DNA from: Deltaproteobacteria bacterium
GTDB lineage: Bacteria > Desulfobacterota > Syntrophia > Syntrophales > UBA5619
Assembly (NCBI GenBank): GCA_021372415.1
Contig: JAJFUM010000404.1
Location: 1 to 39,640, forward strand
Length of the DNA stretch: 39,640 nt
Direction: 5' to 3'
Shown: one piece after another, positions 14,006 to 24,718 of the stretch
How the letters are laid out: every line of letters starts with the position of its first letter
How positions within the stretch are numbered: position 1 is the stretch's first letter
Notes under the pieces: model-generated
Database searches by the model: none
What the model was told of the DNA's origin: nothing
The model's input: only the letters and a program-made list of their open reading frames with translations
Made by a program: the position numbers and the translations under genes

Positions 14006-14929
14006 CTAAAGGGTTTCGGGCGTGAAGGCGACCACATCGTCGATCCTGGCCCTGTCGGCCAGGATCATGGCCAGGCGATCCACGCCCAGCGCAATGCCCG
14101 CGGCGGAGGCGGGCATCCGGGGGAGGGCATCCAGGAAGGCCTCTGGCATGGGATAAACGGGACAGCCGCCGAGCCGCCGTTGGAGATTGGCCGCTTCGAA
14201 ACGCCGGCGCTGCTCCCCGGCATCGGTCAGCTCGGAGAAGGCGTTGGCCATTTCCAGACCTGCCATGTAAAGCTCGAAACGTTCCGCCAGGTCCGGCTCA
14301 CCCGCCTTCAGGCGGGCCAGGGCTCCGAGGGGGGCAGGATAGTCATAGAGAAAAACGGGTTTCTCCAGACCCAGGCGGGGTTCGATGTCGGCCATCACCT
14401 CGTCGAAACAGTCCCGGCTCAGGGCCTCCTCCGGGGTCATGGAGGCGTGGCGTGCGAAGGCCTCCCGGACGCTGATCCGCTCCCAGGGCGGGTCCAGGTC
14501 GATCCGGTTCCCCTGCCAGGAGCAGGACCCCGGCAGCCCGAGGTCTGCGGCCACGCGGCCGATCAGGGCCTCGCAGTCCACCATCAGGTCCCGGTAATCG
14601 GCGCCCGAACGGTACCATTCCAGCAACGTGAACTCGGGAAGATGGCGGGTCCCCCGCTCACCGGCGCGGAAACAGCGGCAGATTTGGAATATCCTGGGAT
14701 AGCCCGCTGCCAGGAGCCGCTTCATGCAGAGCTCCGGGGAGGTATGGAGGAACCATTCGCCGGAGATGACGGCATCAATATGGGATTCAGGCGCCGGGGA
14801 CGGAATCCGGTAGGGGGTTTCGATCTCGAGAAAATCCGCGGCCTGAAAAAAACCGCGGATCGAGAGGAGCATGGCGGCCCTGAGCTTCAGGGCATCGGCC
14901 TTGGCGGTCAGTCTCCACGCTTCGTCCAC
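14006..14929 (-). CDS. epmA: EF-P beta-lysine ligase EpmA (GenX/PoxA)
   Basis: This 307-residue class II lysyl-tRNA synthetase paralogue lacks the N-terminal anticodon-binding domain. It activates (beta-)lysine as an adenylate and attaches it to the EF-P lysine. Visible motifs are FLEIETPYRIPSPAPESHIDA, TSPELCMKRLLAAG, class II motif 2 RCFRAGERGTRHLPEFTLLEWYR, YMAGLEMANAFSEL and class II motif 3 GIALGVDRLAMIL. Length and layout match EpmA rather than LysRS (about 500 aa). It directly follows efp (40-base gap), and an aminomutase lies upstream of efp, so substrate synthesis, target and ligase are together. Confidence 0.95.
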   Translation of the reverse strand: MDEAWRLTAKADALKLRAAMLLSIRGFFQAADFLEIETPYRIPSPAPESHIDAVISGEWFLHTSPELCMKRLLAAGYPRIFQICRCFRAGERGTRHLPEFTLLEWYRSGADYRDLMVDCEALIGRVAADLGLPGSCSWQGNRIDLDPPWERISVREAFARHASMTPEEALSRDCFDEVMADIEPRLGLEKPVFLYDYPAPLGALARLKAGEPDLAERFELYMAGLEMANAFSELTDAGEQRRRFEAANLQRRLGGCPVYPMPEAFLDALPRMPASAAGIALGVDRLAMILADRARIDDVVAFTPETL

Positions 14930-14969: not shown

Positions 14970-15533
14970 TCACCCCTTGACGCGGGTCAGGTACTCCCCG
15001 CTGCGGGTGTCGATCCGGATCTTCTCCCCCTCCTCGATGAAGGGGGGGACCTGGAGGACGTAGCCCGTCTGGACGGTCACCGGCTTCGTGTTTCCAGAAA
15101 CCGAATCCCCTTTGGCCCAGGGATCCGCCTTGGTCACCGTCACGTCGATGAAGTTGGGCAGGCTGATCCCCAGCGGCTTGTCTTCAAACAGGAGGATCTC
15201 CACCTCGATGTTGTCCAGGAGAAAGTTCTTGGCATCGCCGACCTGATCCTCGGTCAGGAAGACCTGTTCGTAGCTCTGGTTGTCCATGAAGCAGTACTTC
15301 CCCTCCTCCTTGTAGAGGTACTGCATCTTTTTCTCTTGAAGGTCGGCCGCTTCGAAGTTGTCGACGGACCTGAAGGTCCTCTCGAACTGGTTCCCATTGA
15401 CCATGTTCTTCAGTTTGCAGCGGTAGAGGGCCTGCCCCTTGCCTGGCTTGACGAAGTTGAATTCCGTCACGATATAGGGATCGTTCTCGAGCTTGATCCG
15501 CAGTCCCTTCCTCAAATCACTGGCTGAATACAT
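14970..15533 (-). CDS. efp: Elongation factor P
   Basis: This 187-residue translation factor relieves ribosome stalling at polyproline stretches. The KOW-like N-domain contains NFVKPGKGQALYRCKLKN. Lys32 in P-G-K-G is the residue expected to receive beta-lysine from EpmA. The middle OB domain (about 65-125) and C-terminal OB domain (VQTGYVLQVPPFIEEGEKIRIDTRSGEYL) are intact. A Lys at this position, rather than Arg, agrees with the EpmA/EpmB route encoded alongside it. An AGGAG site precedes the ATG. The 102-base leader contains two tandem hairpins, listed separately. Confidence 0.97.
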   Translation of the reverse strand: MYSASDLRKGLRIKLENDPYIVTEFNFVKPGKGQALYRCKLKNMVNGNQFERTFRSVDNFEAADLQEKKMQYLYKEEGKYCFMDNQSYEQVFLTEDQVGDAKNFLLDNIEVEILLFEDKPLGISLPNFIDVTVTKADPWAKGDSVSGNTKPVTVQTGYVLQVPPFIEEGEKIRIDTRSGEYLTRVKG

Positions 15534-15635: not shown

Positions 15636-16739
15636 CTAATCCATATGCCCGGTCTTGTCAAAAGAATGTTTTCCCTCCCCCCCGCACTCCGGCAGGAGGG
15701 AAAAGGGCTGTAGGGGGATCTTCCCCCGCCCGCCCGGACAGTCGAGCACGTAGCGTGGCAGGCACAACCCCGAGACGTTGCGCCAGAGTTGCTCCATGAT
15801 CCCCAGGCCCGTCCAGAGCTCGGTCCGGAAGTGACCCGTCCCGCGGACAGGATCGCACTGGAAGAGGTAATAGGGCCGTACCGAGATCCGCTCGAGACCG
15901 TAGAGCAGGTCCCGCATCGTCCCGTAGTCGTCGTTGACCCCCCTGAGCAGGACCGACTGGTTGGAGACGGGGATCCCGGCGGACAGGAGCCTCTCGCAGG
16001 CCTCGGCGGCCTCGGCCGTAATCTCCCGGGGGTGGTTGAACTGGGTGTTGAACCAGAGGGGCCGGTGTCTCTTGAGCATCGCGCAGAGGCCGGGCGTGAC
16101 GCGCATCGGCAGAGTGACCGGTACCCGGCTCCCGATGCGCAGGACCTCCACATGGGGGATCGCCCGTAGTGCCCCCAGGAACCAGTCCAGAAGGCCCTCG
16201 GCCAGGAGCAGGGGGTCCCCTCCGGAGACGATCACCTCCCGGATGGCCGGGGTCCCGGCCACGTGATCCACCATGGCTTCGAGTCTCCCGCGGGCCCCGC
16301 CAGACCCCTTGGCGGTCCAAAGACGTTTGCGGTTGCAGTGCCGGCAATGAAGGGCGCAGGTGCTGGTGGCAATCGCCAGGGCGCGGTCGGGATAACGGTG
16401 AATCAACCCCGGAACGGGCATCGCCTCCCCCTCGCCGAGCGGGTCCTCCTCCCCTCCCAGGGCCTGATCCAGCTCCCGCGGATCGGGAAAACACTGCCTG
16501 CGCAGGGGATCCCCCTCATCAGCCAGATCCATCAGCGAGAGGTAATAGGGCGTGATCGCAACGGGGTAGACGCGCATCACCGGTCCCCAGGCGGCCAGGG
16601 ACGCCACGGACCTTCCCATCACCGCCGAGAGTTGCCGAAGGGTGCGGACACGATTCCTGAACTGCCAGCGCCAGTCGCCCCAGGCCTCAGGGGGCACCCC
16701 TTCCCAGGGCCCGCCGCCCTGCCGCGGTCCTTTCGTCAT
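15636..16739 (-). CDS. epmB: KamA-family radical SAM aminomutase, probable EF-P lysine 2,3-aminomutase
   Basis: This 367-residue enzyme isomerises lysine to beta-lysine using S-adenosylmethionine, a [4Fe-4S] cluster and PLP. The cluster Cys residues are C128, C132 and C135 (CALHCRHC). EVIVSGGDPLLL follows, and Lys340 in CPGGRGKIP is the PLP lysine. Unlike E. coli EpmB, it keeps QCDPVRGTGHFR (Asp296) and LDCPGG (Asp333), matching the two Asp residues that hold the lysine amino group in true lysine 2,3-aminomutase. It heads the unit with efp and epmA, so an EF-P role is inferred from context. The ATG at 16739 has GAGG five bases upstream; an in-frame ATG at 16763 and a GTG at 16778 are alternatives. 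Confidence 0.88.
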   Translation of the reverse strand: MTKGPRQGGGPWEGVPPEAWGDWRWQFRNRVRTLRQLSAVMGRSVASLAAWGPVMRVYPVAITPYYLSLMDLADEGDPLRRQCFPDPRELDQALGGEEDPLGEGEAMPVPGLIHRYPDRALAIATSTCALHCRHCNRKRLWTAKGSGGARGRLEAMVDHVAGTPAIREVIVSGGDPLLLAEGLLDWFLGALRAIPHVEVLRIGSRVPVTLPMRVTPGLCAMLKRHRPLWFNTQFNHPREITAEAAEACERLLSAGIPVSNQSVLLRGVNDDYGTMRDLLYGLERISVRPYYLFQCDPVRGTGHFRTELWTGLGIMEQLWRNVSGLCLPRYVLDCPGGRGKIPLQPFSLLPECGGEGKHSFDKTGHMD

Positions 16740-16778
16740 TTTCGCCTCTACCGTCTTGGTCATGCCTGTTCTCACCAC

Positions 16779-17290
16779 CGCGGTCCCGGGGGCCGTTCAG
16801 AACTCCCGGGGCCTTAACCGGGCGCTTCCTATCACACTTTCCCCATCCGGCAAAGGGGAATCTCGAACTTCCCCTGGGAAAGAGCGCCTTGCTTCGTTCT
16901 GATGTCAGAGAGCCCCCATGCCCTCCCAGTGGCCCGCCTCCTCAGGCAGGCGGCTCCCTCCCGACAGGCTGTTGTCATCCGTCGGCCTCGGCACACTTGA
17001 GGTCCCGCCCGTCGACTCACGCCATTTCAGGGCAATTCCCTATGATTTTTCATCTCCCCGGTCAGGCCTCAAAGGCCCTTCCTCTTTTGCGCGACAAGGC
17101 GTCCCGCAAATGCCTCCAGAGGCATGGAGCGATGCGATCTTGCTCAAGAATGTCTCGTGGCGATGGGAAAAGGCTCTGGCAGAAGAGGAACCAATGGGGG
17201 GAGCCCTTGCCCCCCTAGAGCGGCCGACAGGGTCTTCAGCGTCGTAAATGCCCGCCGTCCCGGAGGGATATCCCCGGCAATTCAATTTGC
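16779..17290. other. Gene-free, hairpin-rich gap between epmB and fadD-like gene
   Basis: No plausible protein was found on either strand. Several short perfect stems are present: 16854-16875 (AGGGGAA/TTCCCCT), 16934-16953 (CCGCCT/AGGCGG), 17111-17124 (TGCCT/AGGCA) and 17196-17215 (GGGGGG/CCCCCC). No T-tracts follow them. It separates divergent genes, so promoters for both directions are expected. Confidence 0.5.
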
Positions 17291-17319
17291 TTGACTGAAA
17301 GGACGCCTTTCCGTATCCT
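17291..17319 (+). promoter_or_regulatory. Candidate promoter of the fadD-like gene
   Basis: TTGACT (17291-17296) lies exactly 17 bp from TATCCT (17314-17319). This coincides with the first in-frame TTG of the acyl-CoA ligase reading frame, which argues that translation begins further downstream. Confidence 0.5.
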
Positions 17320-19228
17320 CCCCCCCTGCGCCAAGGCAGGCGCAACGATCAAAAACGAAAGAGAGATTCGTCCCACGTCCGACCACGTTTCCATAGCAAT
17401 CCCCGCGACAACCATCACCGACGCCCCCACCCTGCCGGCCTTGCTGGCCCGGCGCATCTCCCTCAGCCCAGGTCAGGAGGCCTACCGGGCCTTCGACACC
17501 CAGGCGCAGCGTTGGCGTTCGCTGACCTGGGCCCAGGTCGGCGAAGGCGTGGCCCGCTGGTGCGACGCCCTGGCGGCGATGGCCCTGCCGGCGGCGGCGC
17601 GGGTCTCCATCCTGCTTCCCAACGGCCTGGATACGGTGAGCATCGATCAGGCCGCCCTGGCCCTGGGCATGGTCCCGGTACCGCTGCACGCCAACGACAC
17701 CCCGGGCAGCATCGCCCACATCCTGGGCGACTGCGCGGTTTCGCTGCTGGTCGTGGAGCAGCGCCGGAAGTGGGAGGCCATCATCGCCACGGGTGCGGCG
17801 TTGCCCGCCCTGCGGGCCGTGGTGGTCACCGGAGACATGACCTCGGGGAACGAGGACCTCTCCCGTCACCCCTCGGCCGGGGTCCCGGTGCTGGCGCTGG
17901 CCGCCTGGCTGGCCGCTGGTGTGCCCTCGGCCCATTTTCCCGGTCCGGCCGCCGAGGACCTGGCCGCCATCATCTACACCTCGGGGACCACGGGCAAACC
18001 CAAAGGCGTGAAGCTGACCCACCGCAACATATTGGCCAATGTGAACGCCGTGCTGGGCCGGGTATGGGCCGGTCCAGAGGATCTGTTCCTCTCGTTCCTG
18101 CCCCTGTCCCATACCTTCGAACGCACGGCCGGTTACTATGCGCCCATCGCCGTAGGCTGCTGCGTGGCCTATAGCCGATCGGTGCCGCTCCTGGCCGAGG
18201 ACCTGCTCAGCCAGCGACCCACGGTGCTGGTCTCGGTACCGCGCATCTACGAGCGAGTGCATGCCAAGCTGCAGGAGACCCTGGCCACTGCACCGCTGAA
18301 GGCTCGGCTGCTGGCCTGGACCATAACCCTTGGCTGGCGGCGTTTCCGGGCGGCGCAGGGGCTGCCGCCCGACGAATCCGGACGGCCCGGACGGCTGGAC
18401 GGACTGCTGTGGCCGCTGCTGGCGCACTTCGTCGCCAAGCCCGTGCTGGACCGTTTCGGCGGCCGGATACGGGTGGCGGTCAGCGGCGGTGCCGCCATCC
18501 CGCCGGCCGTGGCCCGCACCTTCCTGGGCCTGGGGTTGCCCCTCCTGCAGGGCTACGGCATGACCGAAACCTCGCCTGTGGTGGCCGTCAACAGCCTGGA
18601 GGACAACGATCCCGCCACAGTGGGCCGTCCCCTGCCGGGCCTGGAGGTACGCCTGGGCAAGAGTCAGGAACTGGAGGTGCGCGGCCCTTCGGTCATGCAG
18701 GGCTACTGGAACCGCGATGAAGACACGGCCCGGGTCCTCGGTGCCGACGGCTGGCTCAGGACCGGCGACCAGGCGGAGGTGAGGGACGGGCGTATTTTCA
18801 TCCGCGGCCGCCTCAAGGAGATCATCGTCACCTCCACGGGCGAGAAGGTCCCGCCGGAGGACCTGGAAAGGGCGTTGTGCGAGGATCCCCTGATCGACCA
18901 GGCCTTCGTGGTGGGTGAACGCAAGCCCTTCATCGGCGTCGTGGTGGTCCTCAACACCCAGGAGTGGAGGCAGCTGGCCTCCAGCCTGGGGCTAGACTGC
19001 GCGGATCCTGCAAGCCTGCAGGCCGCCCCGGCCCGCGACGCCGTGTTGGCCCGGTTGAAGGAACGTGCCGCCAATTTTCCCCACTATGCCGTGCCGCGCG
19101 CCGTGGTCCTGACCCTGGAACACTGGACCATCAAGAACCTCATGCTGACCACCACGCTCAAACTCAAGCGGCAGAACCTTTTGGACCGCTTCGCCGCCGA
19201 GCTCGCGGCCATGTATGCCCCCCGCTGA
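17291..19228 (+). CDS. Long-chain fatty acid-CoA ligase (FadD15-like AMP-binding enzyme)
   Basis: This protein has up to 645 residues. It adenylates a fatty acid and forms acyl-CoA in the cytoplasm or at the membrane. The AMP-binding P-loop IIYTSGTTGKPKGVKLTH is followed by LPLSHTFERTAGYY, the adenine motif GYGMTETSPVV, WLRTGDQAEV and RLKEIIVTSTGEKVPPEDLE. The C-terminus contains IKNLMLTTTLKLKRQNL. This layout matches the long-chain (FadD15/FAA1-type) group. The 5' end is provisional: conserved homology begins near PTLPALLARRISLSPGQEAYR, and between the apparent promoter and that point there is no in-frame ATG or GTG. Gly is mostly GGC and Leu mostly CTG, unlike the mixed GGG/GGA/CTC of neighbours, so acquisition from another lineage is possible. 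Confidence 0.88.
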   Translation: MTERTPFRILPPCAKAGATIKNEREIRPTSDHVSIAIPATTITDAPTLPALLARRISLSPGQEAYRAFDTQAQRWRSLTWAQVGEGVARWCDALAAMALPAAARVSILLPNGLDTVSIDQAALALGMVPVPLHANDTPGSIAHILGDCAVSLLVVEQRRKWEAIIATGAALPALRAVVVTGDMTSGNEDLSRHPSAGVPVLALAAWLAAGVPSAHFPGPAAEDLAAIIYTSGTTGKPKGVKLTHRNILANVNAVLGRVWAGPEDLFLSFLPLSHTFERTAGYYAPIAVGCCVAYSRSVPLLAEDLLSQRPTVLVSVPRIYERVHAKLQETLATAPLKARLLAWTITLGWRRFRAAQGLPPDESGRPGRLDGLLWPLLAHFVAKPVLDRFGGRIRVAVSGGAAIPPAVARTFLGLGLPLLQGYGMTETSPVVAVNSLEDNDPATVGRPLPGLEVRLGKSQELEVRGPSVMQGYWNRDEDTARVLGADGWLRTGDQAEVRDGRIFIRGRLKEIIVTSTGEKVPPEDLERALCEDPLIDQAFVVGERKPFIGVVVVLNTQEWRQLASSLGLDCADPASLQAAPARDAVLARLKERAANFPHYAVPRAVVLTLEHWTIKNLMLTTTLKLKRQNLLDRFAAELAAMYAPR

Positions 19229-19702
19229 GGCGTGCTGGGGCTACGCCCTTGCCCGCTTCTTTCCATCAGGAGACCCTTGGCCCGCTCCAGGGGAGGCCTC
19301 CCGTCAAGGCCCTGCGCCTCCCCTGCCCCACTGTCAGGGGCGGGGCAGTCCTCCGGCAGGCCGGCGGCCGGGACAGCCTACGCGCACGGCAGGAATCCGT
19401 TTCCCGAGACCAAGCAACAACCCCCTCTGGAGCTCCTGATCGCAACGCCGGTGGACGGGGCTGTCCAAAACATTGTTCGGGTGCTTCCCCATGACATTGT
19501 CACCCCCTGCAAAGTGGGATCCCAGGGTCTTCCCGGCTAAAAAGGATTTGCTTTGTCTAGGCAGATTCTATATCCTTAACAATAGGATGGGATGGCACTT
19601 CGGCCCCTCCCCGGGGCATTATTCCATGCCTTCCGTCATTGTTGGTCCATCTTCCATAAGACCCTCGCAGGAGGGCGCAACCTGAAGAAGGGAGATTACC
19701 CC
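19229..19702. other. Gene-free gap between fadD-like and baeRF genes
   Basis: No convincing protein or RNA gene was seen. The first 120 bases are GC-rich with inverted repeats; from about 19540 the sequence becomes more AT-rich (GATTTGCTTTGTCTAGG, then CTATATCCTTAAC), a likely promoter zone for the next gene, though no clear -35/-10 pair was found. Confidence 0.4.
19323..19348 (+). terminator. Hairpin downstream of fadD-like gene
   Basis: CTGCCCC (19323-19329) is exactly complementary to GGGGCAG (19342-19348), about 95 bases after the ligase stop. There is no T-tract, so it is at best a weak or Rho-assisted terminator. Confidence 0.3.
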
Positions 19703-20848
19703 ATGAATGGAACGCTGCACGAGGAATTGAAGACCCTGTTGGGCGAACAGCAAGGCCCCTGCCTGTCGCTTTTCATGCCCACCTTCCGCACCGGCACCGA
19801 AAGCCAGCAAAACCAGATCCGCCTGAAGAACCTCCTGCGTGGCGCCGAGGAGAAGGTGCTGGCTGCGGGTCTTCGTCCCCAAGAAGTCAAAGAATTCCTG
19901 GAACCGGCCCTGACGCTTACGACCAACGTCCTGTTCTGGCGGCGGCAGAGCGACGGCCTGGCCCTATTCCGCTCCCGGGACCGCTTCCGCACCTTCACCC
20001 TGCCCGAGGTCTTCGACGAGGCCCTGACCGTGGGCGAACGGTTCCATGTCCGGCCGTTGCTGCCCCTGCTCCAGGAAGACCGCCGCTTTTACATCCTGGC
20101 CCTAAGCCAGAAGGAGCTGCGGCTCTTGGAGGGGACCTGCCAGAACGTGCGGGAGATCGAGATCGAGTCGGTCCCCAAGAGCCTCGCCGAGGCGCTGCAG
20201 TACGACGAGTCTGAAAAGCAGGTCCGCTTCCGCACCGGCTCGCCCGGCGGGGGCGGCATGGCGATGGTTTCCGGACACGGCGGGGTCGCCGAAGATGCGA
20301 AGGACAACCTGCTGAAATACTTCCGCATGATCGACCGCGCCCTGCACGAGTTGATCGAAGACGAACAGGCGCCCCTGGTCCTGGCCGGGGTGGACTATCT
20401 CTTCCCCATCTACCGCGAGGTCAACACCTTCCCCCGCCTGATCGAAGGGGGCATTGCGGGAAACCCCAAGGGAGTCAGCGCCGAGGCCCTTCACCGGTCG
20501 GCCCTGAAGATCGTCACCCCCCTCTTCCAAAGGGCCGAGAACGACGCCGTCGCCCTCTATCGTCAATCCTCGGGAACGGGCCTGACCTCCGCCGACATCG
20601 GGGAGATCGTCCCGGCCTCTGTCCACGGACGGGTCGGATCGCTCTTCGTCGCGGTCGGTCGCCAAAGATGGGGGAAATTCAATCCCGAGACCGGCACCGC
20701 GGCACTGCACCGGCAGGCGGAGGAGGGAAGTGAGGATCTCCTTGAGATCGCGGCCATCCAGACCTTCCTGAACGGCGGATCGGTCTTCATCCTGTCCCCG
20801 GAACGGATGCCCGACGCCAGCGACCTGATCGCCGTTTTCCGCTATTAA
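19703..20848 (+). CDS. Bacterial archaeo-eukaryotic release factor-like protein (baeRF family)
   Basis: This 381-residue cytoplasmic protein has no signal peptide. The opening LKTLLGEQQGPCLSLFMPTFRTG is followed by NQIRLKNLLRGAEEKV, LFWRRQSDGLALFRSRD, FHVRPLLPLLQEDRRFYILALSQKELRLLEG, then LLKYFRMIDRALHELIEDEQAPLVLAGVDYLFPIYRE. This string of motifs is characteristic of bacterial proteins with the eRF1/Pelota-like fold (the baeRF families, probably family 7 or a close relative). A translation-related or ribosome-rescue role has been proposed from fold and context, but no biochemical function is established. The ATG at 19703 has GGGAG about eight bases upstream. It stands alone between a ligase and a convergent nuclease gene. 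Confidence 0.75.
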   Translation: MNGTLHEELKTLLGEQQGPCLSLFMPTFRTGTESQQNQIRLKNLLRGAEEKVLAAGLRPQEVKEFLEPALTLTTNVLFWRRQSDGLALFRSRDRFRTFTLPEVFDEALTVGERFHVRPLLPLLQEDRRFYILALSQKELRLLEGTCQNVREIEIESVPKSLAEALQYDESEKQVRFRTGSPGGGGMAMVSGHGGVAEDAKDNLLKYFRMIDRALHELIEDEQAPLVLAGVDYLFPIYREVNTFPRLIEGGIAGNPKGVSAEALHRSALKIVTPLFQRAENDAVALYRQSSGTGLTSADIGEIVPASVHGRVGSLFVAVGRQRWGKFNPETGTAALHRQAEEGSEDLLEIAAIQTFLNGGSVFILSPERMPDASDLIAVFRY

Positions 20849-20867
20849 TCTGGGGAATCCCGCTCTC

Positions 20868-20947
20868 ATTCCGGGAAGGCCCTCGCCCCACTCGCAGGGC
20901 TTTCCCGGAATCGGGGCGGAGCGGGACCTCCAGAGGGGTCTCTGGAG
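20868..20947. terminator. Tandem hairpins between convergent genes
   Basis: A 16-bp stem runs from ATTCCGGGAAGGCCCT (20868-20883) to its complement at 20896-20911, with one G-T wobble. A second perfect 8-bp stem CTCCAGAG/CTCTGGAG (20928-20947) has a 4-nt loop. It lies between the ends of the baeRF gene and yhaM and probably serves as a bidirectional transcription barrier. Confidence 0.6.
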
Positions 20948-20976
20948 TCCGTGGCCCCGGTCACGACCAGCCCCTT

Positions 20977-22008
20977 TCAGCCCCCCTCGTTCCCGGTCTG
21001 GCCAGGAAGTTCCGCGGGCTCGCCAGGCCTCCTCCCCTCATCCCCGCCCTGGGCCCGTCGTCCCTTGTAGATGTACCGATCGAAGAGTCGGTGGTAGGGG
21101 GTCCAGTCCGACTCGTCGTCGCGGGCCTCCCGGATAGTCTCTTGGAAGGCGTTCACCTTGGCGTCGAGATCATCCATGTAATGGACAATCAGGGCCTCCA
21201 GGGTTTTCGGTCTCTTGGGGGAACCGTACTCCAGGACACCGTGATGGCTCAGGATCAGATGGCGCAGTTCCATGGCCATCTGCTCGGGGAAGTCGGGAAT
21301 GGCCGCGATCTTCCGGTCGATCATCTCCACCCCCATGACGATGTGCCCGATCAGTCTCCCCGCATCGCTGTACTCCACGATCCGATCAAAGGAGAATTCG
21401 TGGATCTTGCCGATGTCGTGGAGGATGCCGCCGGTGATCAGGAGGTCCCGGTCGATCCCCTGGTAATGGGCCGCCGCCCGATCGAGCAACCGGACGACGG
21501 AGAGGGTGTGCTCCAGAAGCCCGCCGATATAAATATGATGGAATCCCTTGGCTGCCGGAGCCCTGCGGAAGAGGGCGGCGATCCCCTCGTCCTCCAGGAA
21601 GGACGCCAGCAGAGCCGCCAGACAGGGGGTCTTGACCTGGGCCGCGTAACCGCGGATCGCGGCAAACATCTCGTCCAGATCCCCCTTGGCCACGGGGAAA
21701 AAGTCCGCCAGTTCGACCTCTCTGTCCGCGACCTTGCCGATCTCGATGATCGAAAGCTGGATCGCGTTTTTAAAGCTCTGCGCCCGTGCCTGGACGCGGA
21801 TCAGGTCGCCCTTCTTGAAGGTCTTGTCCCAGGCCAGGGCATTGTCCCAAACCTTGCCGTCCAACTCTCCGGTCCGGTCCCTGAGCCGCAGATTCAAATA
21901 GGGGGCCCCTTTCTGGGAGTAGGCCAAGTTCTTCTCCGCCGCCAGGAAGACCTCGCTGACCCGGTCACCGGTCCGAATGTCCTTTGCAAAAACAGCCTTT
22001 GATTTCAA
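20977..22008 (-). CDS. 3'-5' exoribonuclease YhaM-like (OB-fold plus HD domain)
   Basis: This 343-residue protein has an N-terminal OB-fold nucleic-acid-binding domain (about 1-100: NLRLRDRTGELDGKVWDN, KGDLIRVQARAQSFKNAIQL) followed by an HD phosphohydrolase domain with LEHTLSVVRLLDRAA, ITGGILHDIGKI (the H-D pair), GHIVMG and LILSHHG. This order is that of Bacillus YhaM and Staphylococcus Cbf1, Mn-dependent 3'-5' exonucleases acting on RNA and single-stranded DNA. The C-terminal 40 residues are a low-complexity Gly/Arg/Glu/Pro tail. Translation starts at a TTG that overlaps the fdhD TGA as TTGA, so it is coupled to fdhD. The link to selenium or formate metabolism is positional only. Confidence 0.85.
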   Translation of the reverse strand: MKSKAVFAKDIRTGDRVSEVFLAAEKNLAYSQKGAPYLNLRLRDRTGELDGKVWDNALAWDKTFKKGDLIRVQARAQSFKNAIQLSIIEIGKVADREVELADFFPVAKGDLDEMFAAIRGYAAQVKTPCLAALLASFLEDEGIAALFRRAPAAKGFHHIYIGGLLEHTLSVVRLLDRAAAHYQGIDRDLLITGGILHDIGKIHEFSFDRIVEYSDAGRLIGHIVMGVEMIDRKIAAIPDFPEQMAMELRHLILSHHGVLEYGSPKRPKTLEALIVHYMDDLDAKVNAFQETIREARDDESDWTPYHRLFDRYIYKGRRAQGGDEGRRPGEPAELPGQTGNEGG

Positions 22009-22796
22009 ATCGTCAACCGCCCTTCATGGGAATAAATTTTCATCCGCCCGCTCCGGACCGAACCGACCAGCGTGATCCCCGCCTCCCGGGCCATCTGGAC
22101 CGCCAGGGTGGTAGGAACGGAGAGGGAGGCGACCAGAGATACGCCCAGGAGCCGGACCTTGTGGACGATCTCCGAAGAGACGCGTCCCGTCCGCAGGATC
22201 ATCGCCCCCCGACAGTCCAGTCCGTTGAGCAGGGCGTATCCACCCAGCATATCGATCGCGTTGTGCCGGCCGATGTCCTGCCGGACGGCCAGAATGTCAC
22301 CGTCCCGCACCAGGGCCGCGGCGTGGGTCCCGCCGGTCTCGTCGTGGAGCGACGCAAGGTCGAGGAAACGCCTCATCAGGTCCTGGATCTGGCCGGGAGA
22401 GATCCGGACCCCGGCCGGGACGGCCCCGACAGGCTCGGCCCGAGGCGCCAAGCCCATGCTGCCGGCGCCGCTGGAGGCTACCGTCCTTTCTGGAGTCACA
22501 GAGGGCTCGGGACGGCCCTCGGCCTCGGCGGTCCGGACCCGGACCTCCCGACCGTCTTCGGAAACCTCCAGGGAAGACAGGTCCGCCCGGTTGCGGAGAA
22601 CCCCCTCCGAGACAAGGAACCCCACGGCCAGTTCCTCCACGTGCATACCGGCACAGGCGATGGTGATCACCCGACGCCCATTGAGGTGCACCTCCAGGGG
22701 GAGCTCCCGGACGATCCGCTCTTCGCTTTCGAGGAGCCTCCTGCCGTCGTACGACAGGGCCCTGAGCGTTTCGCTTCCCAGGCTTTCCCTTCTCAT
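22005..22796 (-). CDS. fdhD: FdhD-like formate dehydrogenase accessory protein lacking the sulfur-transfer Cys
   Basis: This 263-residue cytoplasmic protein is recognised by HVEELAVGFLVSEGVL, QDIGRHNAIDMLGGYAL, RTGRVSSEIVHKV and the C-terminal AGITLVGSVRSGRMKIYS. FdhD passes sulfur from the IscS desulfurase to the molybdenum/tungsten cofactor of formate dehydrogenases. The family loop normally reads T-S-x-C-G-x-C-G or T-S-G-C-G-G-G. Here the same place is V-A-S-S-G-A-G-S-M-G, with Ala111 where Cys is expected, and the only Cys residues (48 and 195) lie elsewhere. Its function may be altered. The ATG at 22796 overlaps the selB stop (ATGA). A long upstream in-frame extension is antisense-like and rejected. 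Confidence 0.88.
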   Translation of the reverse strand: MRRESLGSETLRALSYDGRRLLESEERIVRELPLEVHLNGRRVITIACAGMHVEELAVGFLVSEGVLRNRADLSSLEVSEDGREVRVRTAEAEGRPEPSVTPERTVASSGAGSMGLAPRAEPVGAVPAGVRISPGQIQDLMRRFLDLASLHDETGGTHAAALVRDGDILAVRQDIGRHNAIDMLGGYALLNGLDCRGAMILRTGRVSSEIVHKVRLLGVSLVASLSVPTTLAVQMAREAGITLVGSVRSGRMKIYSHEGRLTI

Positions 22797-24718
22797 CGTT
22801 CCGGCCTTTCCCGGAGGATCCGGCGATCGCCCTGCCGCATGGTCAACTTGGACATGTCGAAGTATTCCATGAGCGGGATGATGAACTTCCGCGACAGCCC
22901 CGTGAGCTCCCTGAAGCTCGCCGGTGTTGCCTGCCCTTCCCGGATGAGGAGCTGGCGGTAATCCTCCCGGAGCTTTGCCAGGACCTCCCGATGGAAGTTC
23001 AGATCCTCGCTGATCCGAACGAGGCACCCCTCCCGGATCAGCACCTCCATGAGGCTGGCGACCTCCCTCTTGCGGTCGGCGAACCGTTCCAGGACTTCCC
23101 GCACCGTTGGCGGTGCGAGGCCGCCGCCGAGATAGAGGGAAGAGAGGCTCTCCCGCAGATCCCCCATCTCCCCTCCGAGTTGGACCCGGTGGCCGGCCAG
23201 CCGGAGCGTCTCCTTCTCCGCGGCGATCTCGCCGCGCTTTTCCAGGTCCCTCAGGGCCATGGCAAAGATCTTCTGGCCCGCCCCATCCGTCATTCCGATC
23301 GTTGTCCGGAGTTCCTCCCGCGACAGGCCCTCCTTCAGAGGGAACCGTTCGTGGTATCCCTTGATCTCCGCGACGATCTCCCCGAGCAACCCCGAGTAAA
23401 CCGTCCCGCTCAGGACCCTCGTCTCCTCGCGATCAACCAGGATGGCCTCCTTGGCGGCGAACATCCCCTCCAGAAGCCTGCGGAGTCCCGCCCGGCGGAT
23501 CCCGGTCCGAGGGATCAGACGGGGTTCCGTGATCCCGCAGATCCCGGCCCTGGCCATCACGACGGCCACCCGCTCAGCCTCGGAGCCGCCGGCCAGAAGC
23601 CGGAACTCCTCAAGGACCGCGGCAGCCGACCGTTTGTGCTTGGCCGGCATGGGGTCGACGACCACGCCGCCCCCGATTGTCGTCACGGGGGAATAGCTCC
23701 TGACCACGAACCGGTCCCCGGCCACTGCAGCCACCGGAGCCTCTAGGACGAGTTGGGCATAGGCCTCGGAACCAGGTTCCAGTTCGTCCCGGTCCAGGAG
23801 GATCAACCGGGCCATGATCTCGTTCGTACCCGTATGGAACCTCACCAGGGTCCGGTTCTTCAGTTTCCGTCCAGGGCCCGGCAGGTAGCGGTAGCGGACG
23901 TCGAGGCGTCCCGCAGCCATGAGGCTGTCCGGTCCGGCCAGGAGATGACCCCGTTCGATCAGGGACCGATCGATCCCCTGGAGGTTGACGGCCGTCCTCT
24001 GCCCTGCCTCGGCGCTCTCGACGGTCCGGTTATGGACCTGGATCCCCCGGACCCGGGCCCGGATCCCGACCGGATAGACCTCGATCTCCTCGCCCACCGA
24101 TACCTTTCCGGAGATCAGGGTCCCCGTAACGACCGTCCCGAACCCCTTCATCGTGAAGACCCGGTCCACGGGCAGACGGAAGAGGCCGATATCGGCCTGC
24201 TCCTCCACCGCATCGGCCACCTTTTCGATCGTGGCGACAAGCTCCGGCAGACCGGCCCCGGTCAGGGAAGAGATCGGGACGATCGGCGCCCCCTCCAGAA
24301 AGGTCCCCTGGAGGAACCCCTGGATTTCATCCCGGACCAGGGTCAGCCACTCCGGCTCCACCATGTCGACCTTCGTCAAGGCGACGAAGCCCTGGCGGAT
24401 CCCCAGGAGGGTGCATATTTGCAAGTGCTCCCGCGTCTGGGGCATGACCCCTTCGTCGGCGGCGATCACCATCACGACCAGATCGATGCCGGCAGCGCCC
24501 GCCACCATATTCCGGACGAACCGCTCATGCCCCGGGACATCGACGATGCCCACCGTCCTGCCGTTGGAAAGGACCAGGGAGGCGAAGCCGAGTTCGATGG
24601 TGATCCCCCGCTCCTTCTCCTCCTTGAGACGGTCCGTATCGACGCCGGTGAGGAGTTTGATCAGCGATGTCTTGCCGTGATCCACATGGCCGGCCGTTCC
24701 CATCACGACATGCTTCAT
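22793..24718 (-). CDS. selB: Selenocysteine-specific elongation factor SelB
   Basis: This 641-residue GTPase delivers Sec-tRNA to UGA codons marked by a SECIS hairpin. The N-terminal GTP-binding domain shows [13 protein letters not shown] (G1), [10 protein letters not shown]-like [13 protein letters not shown] (G3), ALTKVD (G4) and the SelB-typical [17 protein letters not shown]-Tu-like domains 2 and 3 follow ([34 protein letters not shown]). The C-terminal half (about 360-641) comprises winged-helix repeats ending [32 protein letters not shown], which bind the SECIS element. Its presence implies selenoproteins in this organism, with formate dehydrogenase suggested by the adjoining fdhD. selA, selD and selC (tRNA-Sec) are not in the window. 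No Shine-Dalgarno sequence is obvious before the ATG. Confidence 0.97.

Follow-up and report, generated by a model that had tools for sequence, protein, structure and literature searches.

The gene and its upstream region

The stretch of DNA analysed here (the window) comprises 39,640 nucleotides and carries, at positions 19703–20848 of the forward strand, an open reading frame encoding a protein of 381 amino acids. This is a genuine gene with exact coordinates, named the baeRF or Balon-like gene here from the ORF call and from matches to Pfam, PDB and NCBIfam entries. A ribosome-binding site, GGGAG (19690–19694, +), is situated 8 bases 5' of the ATG, and dN/dS values calculated at the codon level by the Nei–Gojobori method were low, ranging from 0.07 to 0.24 in seven pairs. 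With the Pfam baeRF matches described below, these features confirm the baeRF-type ORF that a first-pass annotation of the window had placed at this position. No internal stops were present in any match listed from a search of 61 related genomes. The genome to which the window belongs is a draft of 477 contigs (completeness 97.02, contamination 6.42). A longer mechanical ORF beginning at 19592 appears in the program-made ORF list; this upstream extension was rejected as unsupported, since an ATG occurs at the aligned place in all 16 loci compared (window included) and the GGGAG stands ahead of the window's own ATG.

The gene is preceded by a gap at 19229–19702, and a second gap (16779–17290) precedes the acyl-CoA ligase ORF described below. 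These gaps had been described initially as long and structured. They do exist, but 19590–19720, the sole stretch folded, gave a folding z of −0.10 relative to shuffled sequence, and a structured leader at this site was rejected. Scans of the window for Rfam families and tRNAs gave nothing. A small hairpin, CCCTC-GCAG-GAGGG (19662–19675, +), is found 5' of the ribosome-binding site and in most of 14 close relatives. In an alignment of 14 of the 15 full-match loci of the window's family (L007, with a short upstream stretch, being left out), its pairing was kept in 94.3% of cells, a value reached by shuffles in 132 of 500 cases, and its covariation score, reached in 93 of 500, was not significant.

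Further upstream, at 19540–19574 (+) and about 130–160 bases 5' of the ATG, there is a conserved promoter-like element, AAAAGGATTTGCTTTG-N9-ATTCTATATC, whose general form across loci is GAAATNATTTGCTTTG-N9-ATTNTATAT. The window and 12 of 14 loci of its family have the core TTTGC[AT]T, with matching context by eye; it lies 140–172 bases upstream, except in L007 (64), and L015 has a variant. A similar context was recognised by eye in three of 15 further loci of the order (L021, L028, L029). When the full pattern was searched with up to three mismatches, 9 of the 21 genomes sampled had it, each at a single site, and the controls gave no hits; by their coordinates all nine sites are directly upstream of baeRF. 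In this sample it was not found in five order genomes with a baeRF match (G021, G024, G025, G026, and G028), nor in G001, which has no baeRF at this site. In the window's own genome a shorter pattern is exact at one place, upstream of baeRF, and the four places found at three mismatches equal the control count. The element is assigned to baeRF because the ligase gene stands between it and epmB in the window. From its sequence it is a putative promoter; a simple scan of 19200–21000 for sigma-70 promoters and terminators gave nothing.

Gene neighbourhood and distribution

On one side of the baeRF gene, all on the reverse strand, are genes for an OB and HD-domain protein resembling the YhaM 3'-5' exoribonuclease (20977–22008; 176.3 bits on the YhaM model, below its cut-off of 460), FdhD (22005–23027, a listed ORF that overlaps selB and whose true start is probably further in), and the selenocysteine elongation factor SelB (22793–24718, from a domain scan). 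On the other side are an AMP-binding acyl-CoA ligase ORF on the forward strand (17291–19228; PF00501, 238.5 bits) and, on the reverse strand, genes for a KamA/EpmB-like radical-SAM aminomutase identified by profile matches (15636–16778), elongation factor P (EF-P; 14970–15533) and the EF-P lysine ligase EpmA (14006–14929). The aminomutase scored higher as lysine 2,3-aminomutase (396.1 bits) than as EpmB (241.9 bits), both below their cut-offs, with only the general KamA-family model being passed; its gene adjoins those of EF-P and EpmA.

The row selB-yhaM-epmB-efp-epmA-tol is common across the order, with baeRF set into it in the counter orientation. Among 20 order loci with long flanks, two of which (L034, L036) extend no more than about 2 kb on the YhaM side, EF-P was found in 15, the YhaM-like gene in 15 and SelB in 14, each opposite to baeRF. 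The neighbouring acyl-CoA ligase reported by the first-pass annotation is real, as its PF00501 match attests. It has no counterpart in the loci of 20 relatives and is thus the accessory, window-specific piece. The accompanying description of an accessory-looking island was mostly wrong: the baeRF gene has a single location within a core-gene row that many genomes of the order share, though some lack it there.

A baeRF match was obtained in 44 of the 61 related genomes (own genome included), representing 23 of 35 genera, and it is near full-length in 40 of these 61 genomes by a count from the match list. Four genomes (G006, G008, G028, and G060) gave partial matches of 43 to 126 aligned residues, that of G060 at 28% identity. 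In a phylum sample, 16 of 297 genomes were positive at E 1e-20, three of them in the window's own order; the gene is therefore patchy outside the order. Two genomes of the window's genus have a divergent copy elsewhere (L089, L090; 44–47% identity), and G001, lacking baeRF at the conserved site, carries the divergent type only.

For the 17 relatives without a baeRF match, EF-P and the YhaM-like gene are at most 5 kb apart in six, on different contigs in seven, and in four at least one of the two was not found. Those six, together with G001 and G008, constitute eight baeRF-less loci, a set selected for its unbroken row. Each of the eight has epmA, efp, epmB and the YhaM-like gene in that sequence, all pointing the same way, and baeRF is missing from the stretch; selB follows the row in seven, and none was found in L117. 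Between the YhaM-like and epmB matches, six of the eight have 36–335 bases and two have other genes. This junction is a variable site: a cation-efflux gene occupies it in L118 (5250–6416) and MFS, CoA-binding and nitronate-monooxygenase genes occupy it in L119 (3731–7346), both without baeRF, and in L051 (5511–8404) metallo-lactamase-fold, cation-efflux and GMP/NAD-synthase-like genes come after baeRF. From these arrangements baeRF appears to be a self-contained gene that was set into the core row and is gained or lost as a unit.

Such conserved surroundings could suggest that the protein is a partner of its neighbours EF-P/EpmAB or SelB, for example one freeing ribosomes stalled at polyproline or UGA, and the adjacency counted above across the 20 order loci speaks for this. 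Against it, baeRF is opposite in orientation to all of these genes in those loci, and none of the reference neighbours was shared, at the threshold used, by another 20 loci, of which 13 are from outside the order and 7 from within it (one of the 7 being 4.4 kb long). A functional link to EF-P is also weakened because the row exists without baeRF in the eight selected genomes, leaving the adjacency as weak evidence of a common pathway; we regard such a partnership as very improbable. The nearby EF-P, YhaM-like RNase and SelB genes could equally be cited for a non-catalytic rescue factor of the Pelota/Dom34 kind, which would enter stalled ribosomes and help to clear them. Relief of stalled ribosomes is one option raised in the available text of the 2019 baeRF paper. 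Since the row also occurs in eight genomes that have no baeRF in it, it is not in itself a sign of a shared pathway, and the closest relatives of known structure (see below) are hibernation factors, so a rescue role is judged unlikely.

The homologue on a Rubrobacter plasmid (49.3% identity) is directly 3' of a CopG/PIN toxin-antitoxin-like pair (L053, 7171–9134). A conjugative plasmid of Enterobacter hormaechei has a Balon-type homologue, annotated as a hypothetical protein, between two IS1 copies (L056, 4127–5071), an interval that also holds cold-shock and iraM genes. Phage records yielded three matches at 21–22% identity, in unannotated records of 20,258, 4,362 and 2,030 bases. Two scans of viral contigs confirmed no relative, and the protein has no match in PHROGs or PADLOC.

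Homology to Balon and the baeRF families

A profile search against the baeRF Pfam families, which had been proposed as a check of the initial family call, was run and bears that call out, with five families above cut-off: baeRF_family7 (155.9 bits), family3 (153.9), family6 (119), family8 (77.1) and family11 (69.5). The same five were matched at E 0.001 by all 32 members of alignment A1, from which the motif and conservation counts given below are also taken. The scores for baeRF_family7 (PF18849, cut-off 27.2 bits) and baeRF_family3 (PF18845, cut-off 31.5 bits) are far above both cut-offs and nearly tied; these two models overlap and the window protein does not separate them.

The best sequence relative of known structure is Balon of Psychrobacter urativorans (8RD8, 8RDV, 8RDW). 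As a single sequence the protein found Balon in the PDB at 1.4e-15 (phmmer; residues 9–378 against Balon 5–365), and the profile of the 32-member family found it (8RD8) at 5.8e-34 (positions 3–378 against Balon 3–369). Balon was also the best PDB match of each third taken separately. The N third matched it at 0.0019 as a single sequence, the M third at 0.2 alone and 0.001 as a six-sequence profile, and the C third at 0.3 alone and 7.4e-7 as a seven-sequence profile, so that as single sequences the M and C thirds are weak matches. The two proteins are thus alike in length and in colinear three-domain homology, and they share a match to baeRF_family3, on which Balon itself scores 105.6 bits. AlphaFold2, run from the window protein and one relative, gave a mean pLDDT of 33 and no usable model. 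The eRF1-like fold named in the first-pass annotation is nonetheless supported through this relative, as Balon has the domain organisation of aeRF1/Pelota according to its authors (PMC10901736, in the text available). eRF1, Pelota and Vms1 are placed in the same superfamily in the accessible portions of the 2019 and 2024 papers; the window protein, without GGQ or NIKS, is set beside them by this published superfamily.

A wide-sense definition of a Balon-type protein is given in the available text of the Balon paper (PMC10901736), namely HMM homology to Balon and a length of at least 300 amino acids so that the three domains are present. The window protein falls within this definition with its 381 amino acids and its full-length match in the profile search of the PDB. 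The NCBIfam Balon-type model (NF052287, the AOC03_06830 family) was matched at E 0.001 by all 32 aligned proteins. As an equivalog this model has a cut-off of 330 bits, and the window protein, at 145.1 bits, falls short of it. The second PDB match of the full profile, at 1.7e-6, was Msmeg1130 (8V9J; further structures 8V9K, 8V9L), the protein of the Msmeg1130/Rv2629 type (NF052288); the PDB codes of both matches agree with the depositions listed in the Balon paper (PMC10901736). Here the homology is detectable and the match to the window family is mainly in the N domain; NF052288 was reached at E 0.001 by 13 of the 32 aligned proteins. That the protein is a new Balon-type member is well supported; most probably, then, its kind is already known and only the example is new.

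Motifs, position in the family and proposed role

Balon has been shown experimentally to be an A-site hibernation factor of bacteria under stress; its A-site binding is described as independent of mRNA, with a contact to EF-Tu(GDP) and no GGQ, and two mycobacterial homologues (Msmeg1130/Rv2629) were seen on the ribosome by cryo-EM and inhibit translation in vitro (PMC10901736, in the text available). The first-pass annotation had assigned the protein no known function and had stated that the family lacks experimental roles. Given the full-length match to Balon and the cryo-EM structures of Balon and both mycobacterial homologues on the ribosome, neither statement is up to date; the annotation named the correct family but erred on the lack of a role and on the island.

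The decoding-centre loop of the N domain corresponds to residues 27–43 (19781–19831, +), TFRTGTESQQNQIRLKN, and aligns with Balon THREHPANDQDPIALKN, where the HP of Balon is GT in the window protein. At residues 31–32 all 32 rows have G followed by A (16), V (12), T (2), P (1) or S (1), and HP occurs in none. The sole HP dipeptide within Balon residues 3–369 is at residue 27 and is presumably the HP motif of the Balon paper, the available text of which gives no residue number. In a set of 29 chosen rows, HP is present at that place in Balon and L085 alone, with gaps in L056 and L080. Msmeg1130 also has no HP at the aligned place, and as it is an A-site binder, HP is not essential for A-site binding in the wider family.

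The M domain has a G-H-G loop at residues 191–193 (20273–20281, +), which reads GHG in 29, GQG in two and GGG in one of the 32 rows, G191 and G193 being invariant. This constancy is of note since the loop region is reported as poorly conserved in the broadly spread baeRF families in the 2019 baeRF paper, as far as its available text goes. The loop may be the counterpart of the GGQ loop of eRF1 and of the lasso of Balon, which, like Balon's bL27 trap, is described without residue numbers in the text available (PMC10901736). The Balon counterpart is insecurely aligned, the letters facing the loop being TGDGG in one alignment and gaps in two others. GGQ and NIKS are absent from all 32 aligned rows, an absence also reported for Balon in the text available. 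In the tree row L090, GGQ is present in the C domain (GGQ-AWG), outside the M-domain loop. An active peptidyl-tRNA hydrolase of the eRF1 or Vms1 kind would belong to the same superfamily, and the invariant G191 and G193, with Gln between them in two rows, might be taken as its trace. The catalytic glutamine (GGQ or GxuQ) of aeRF1/VLRF1 is lacking here and Gln is rare around the loop, occurring among the four residues after G193 in one row of 32. In the accessible text of the 2019 paper, a conserved Gln is linked to activity and family 10 is named as the best baeRF candidate; on baeRF_family10 the window protein scores 16.6 bits, below the cut-off of 27.1, and the family has no match in its own genome. 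Such a hydrolase is extremely improbable. In the C domain, a stretch at about residues 319–345 (20657–20737, +) aligns with that of Balon and may hold the beta-hairpin insertion meeting EF-Tu, such an insertion in the Balon C domain being described as contacting EF-Tu (PMC10901736, in the text available).

The 29 rows were also used for a midpoint-rooted tree, with many open inner forks and four long rows of uncertain position. Balon pairs with a Moraxella plasmid protein (support 100/100), and its side consists of nine rows: this pair, plasmid proteins of Nitrobacter, Paracoccus, Mesorhizobium, Enterobacter and Enterococcus, and two phylum loci. The window protein is in the opposite branch of 20 rows (support 97/98), which holds the Nostoc, Rubrobacter, Spirosoma, Acetoanaerobium and Roseinatronobacter rows and seven of the nine phylum loci used. 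It differs from Balon, across this supported branch, in lacking HP, in its lower score on the equivalog, in its constant G-H-G loop and in its gene neighbours. Because HP is missing in all 32 rows and the score is below the NCBI cut-off for Balon proper, the sequence comparison places the protein in a sister branch of Balon proper.

Overall, the gene probably encodes a Balon-like ribosome hibernation factor, with A-site binding, EF-Tu contact and inhibition being proposed for it by homology. Under starvation or stress the gene's own putative promoter would be used, and the three-domain protein would enter the A site without a codon. Its N domain would rest on the decoding centre and its G-H-G loop beside the peptidyl-transferase centre, with no peptide release as GGQ is missing, while the C domain would meet EF-Tu(GDP). 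The ribosome would then be held inactive yet intact until growth resumes, alongside the genome's single long HPF (178 amino acids, both domains); with this protein in the same genome, two hibernation routes could act together. Counting against the hibernation reading are the absence of HP, the shortfall on the equivalog, the position of Balon outside the 20-row branch, the weak matches of the single M and C thirds and the negative result for stress neighbours in the window given next.

HPF/RaiA is the neighbour most often reported for Balon by its authors (PMC10901736, in the text available). Neither RaiA nor a known stress gene was found among the scanned neighbours in the window. A Spirosoma plasmid homologue (29.8% identity) is directly after an HPF/RaiA gene; for the Nitrobacter homologue the next gene is of the Dps type, and a Usp gene stands two genes ahead of the homologue. 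Members of one ORF cluster lie within 7 kb in 6 of 27 loci, and the single member scanned is a universal stress protein. Other plasmid homologues, that of Mesorhizobium among them, have no RaiA or stress neighbour in the stretch listed.

No paper containing both 'Balon' and 'baeRF' was found in the literature searched, and 'baeRF' is not used in the main text of the Balon paper (PMC10901736). The baeRF families are still labelled as without a role while Balon is a shown hibernation factor, and the present gene joins both names. As it links the baeRF families to Balon, it allows Pfam families 3 and 7 to be interpreted as Balon-type proteins. The order also has a branch whose decoding loop is changed, and this makes it suitable for testing whether the HP motif is needed. 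A further, speculative proposal, with some chance of being correct but doubtful at present, is that the order has an old second branch of Balon-type factors whose reading of the A site is unlike that of Balon: Gly and a small residue would replace HP in the decoding loop, the tip at the peptidyl-transferase centre would be a constant G-[H/Q]-G, and the promoter element would be a dedicated one. If this is true, the state in which that branch keeps ribosomes, or the signal to which it responds, could be one that has yet to be described for Balon.
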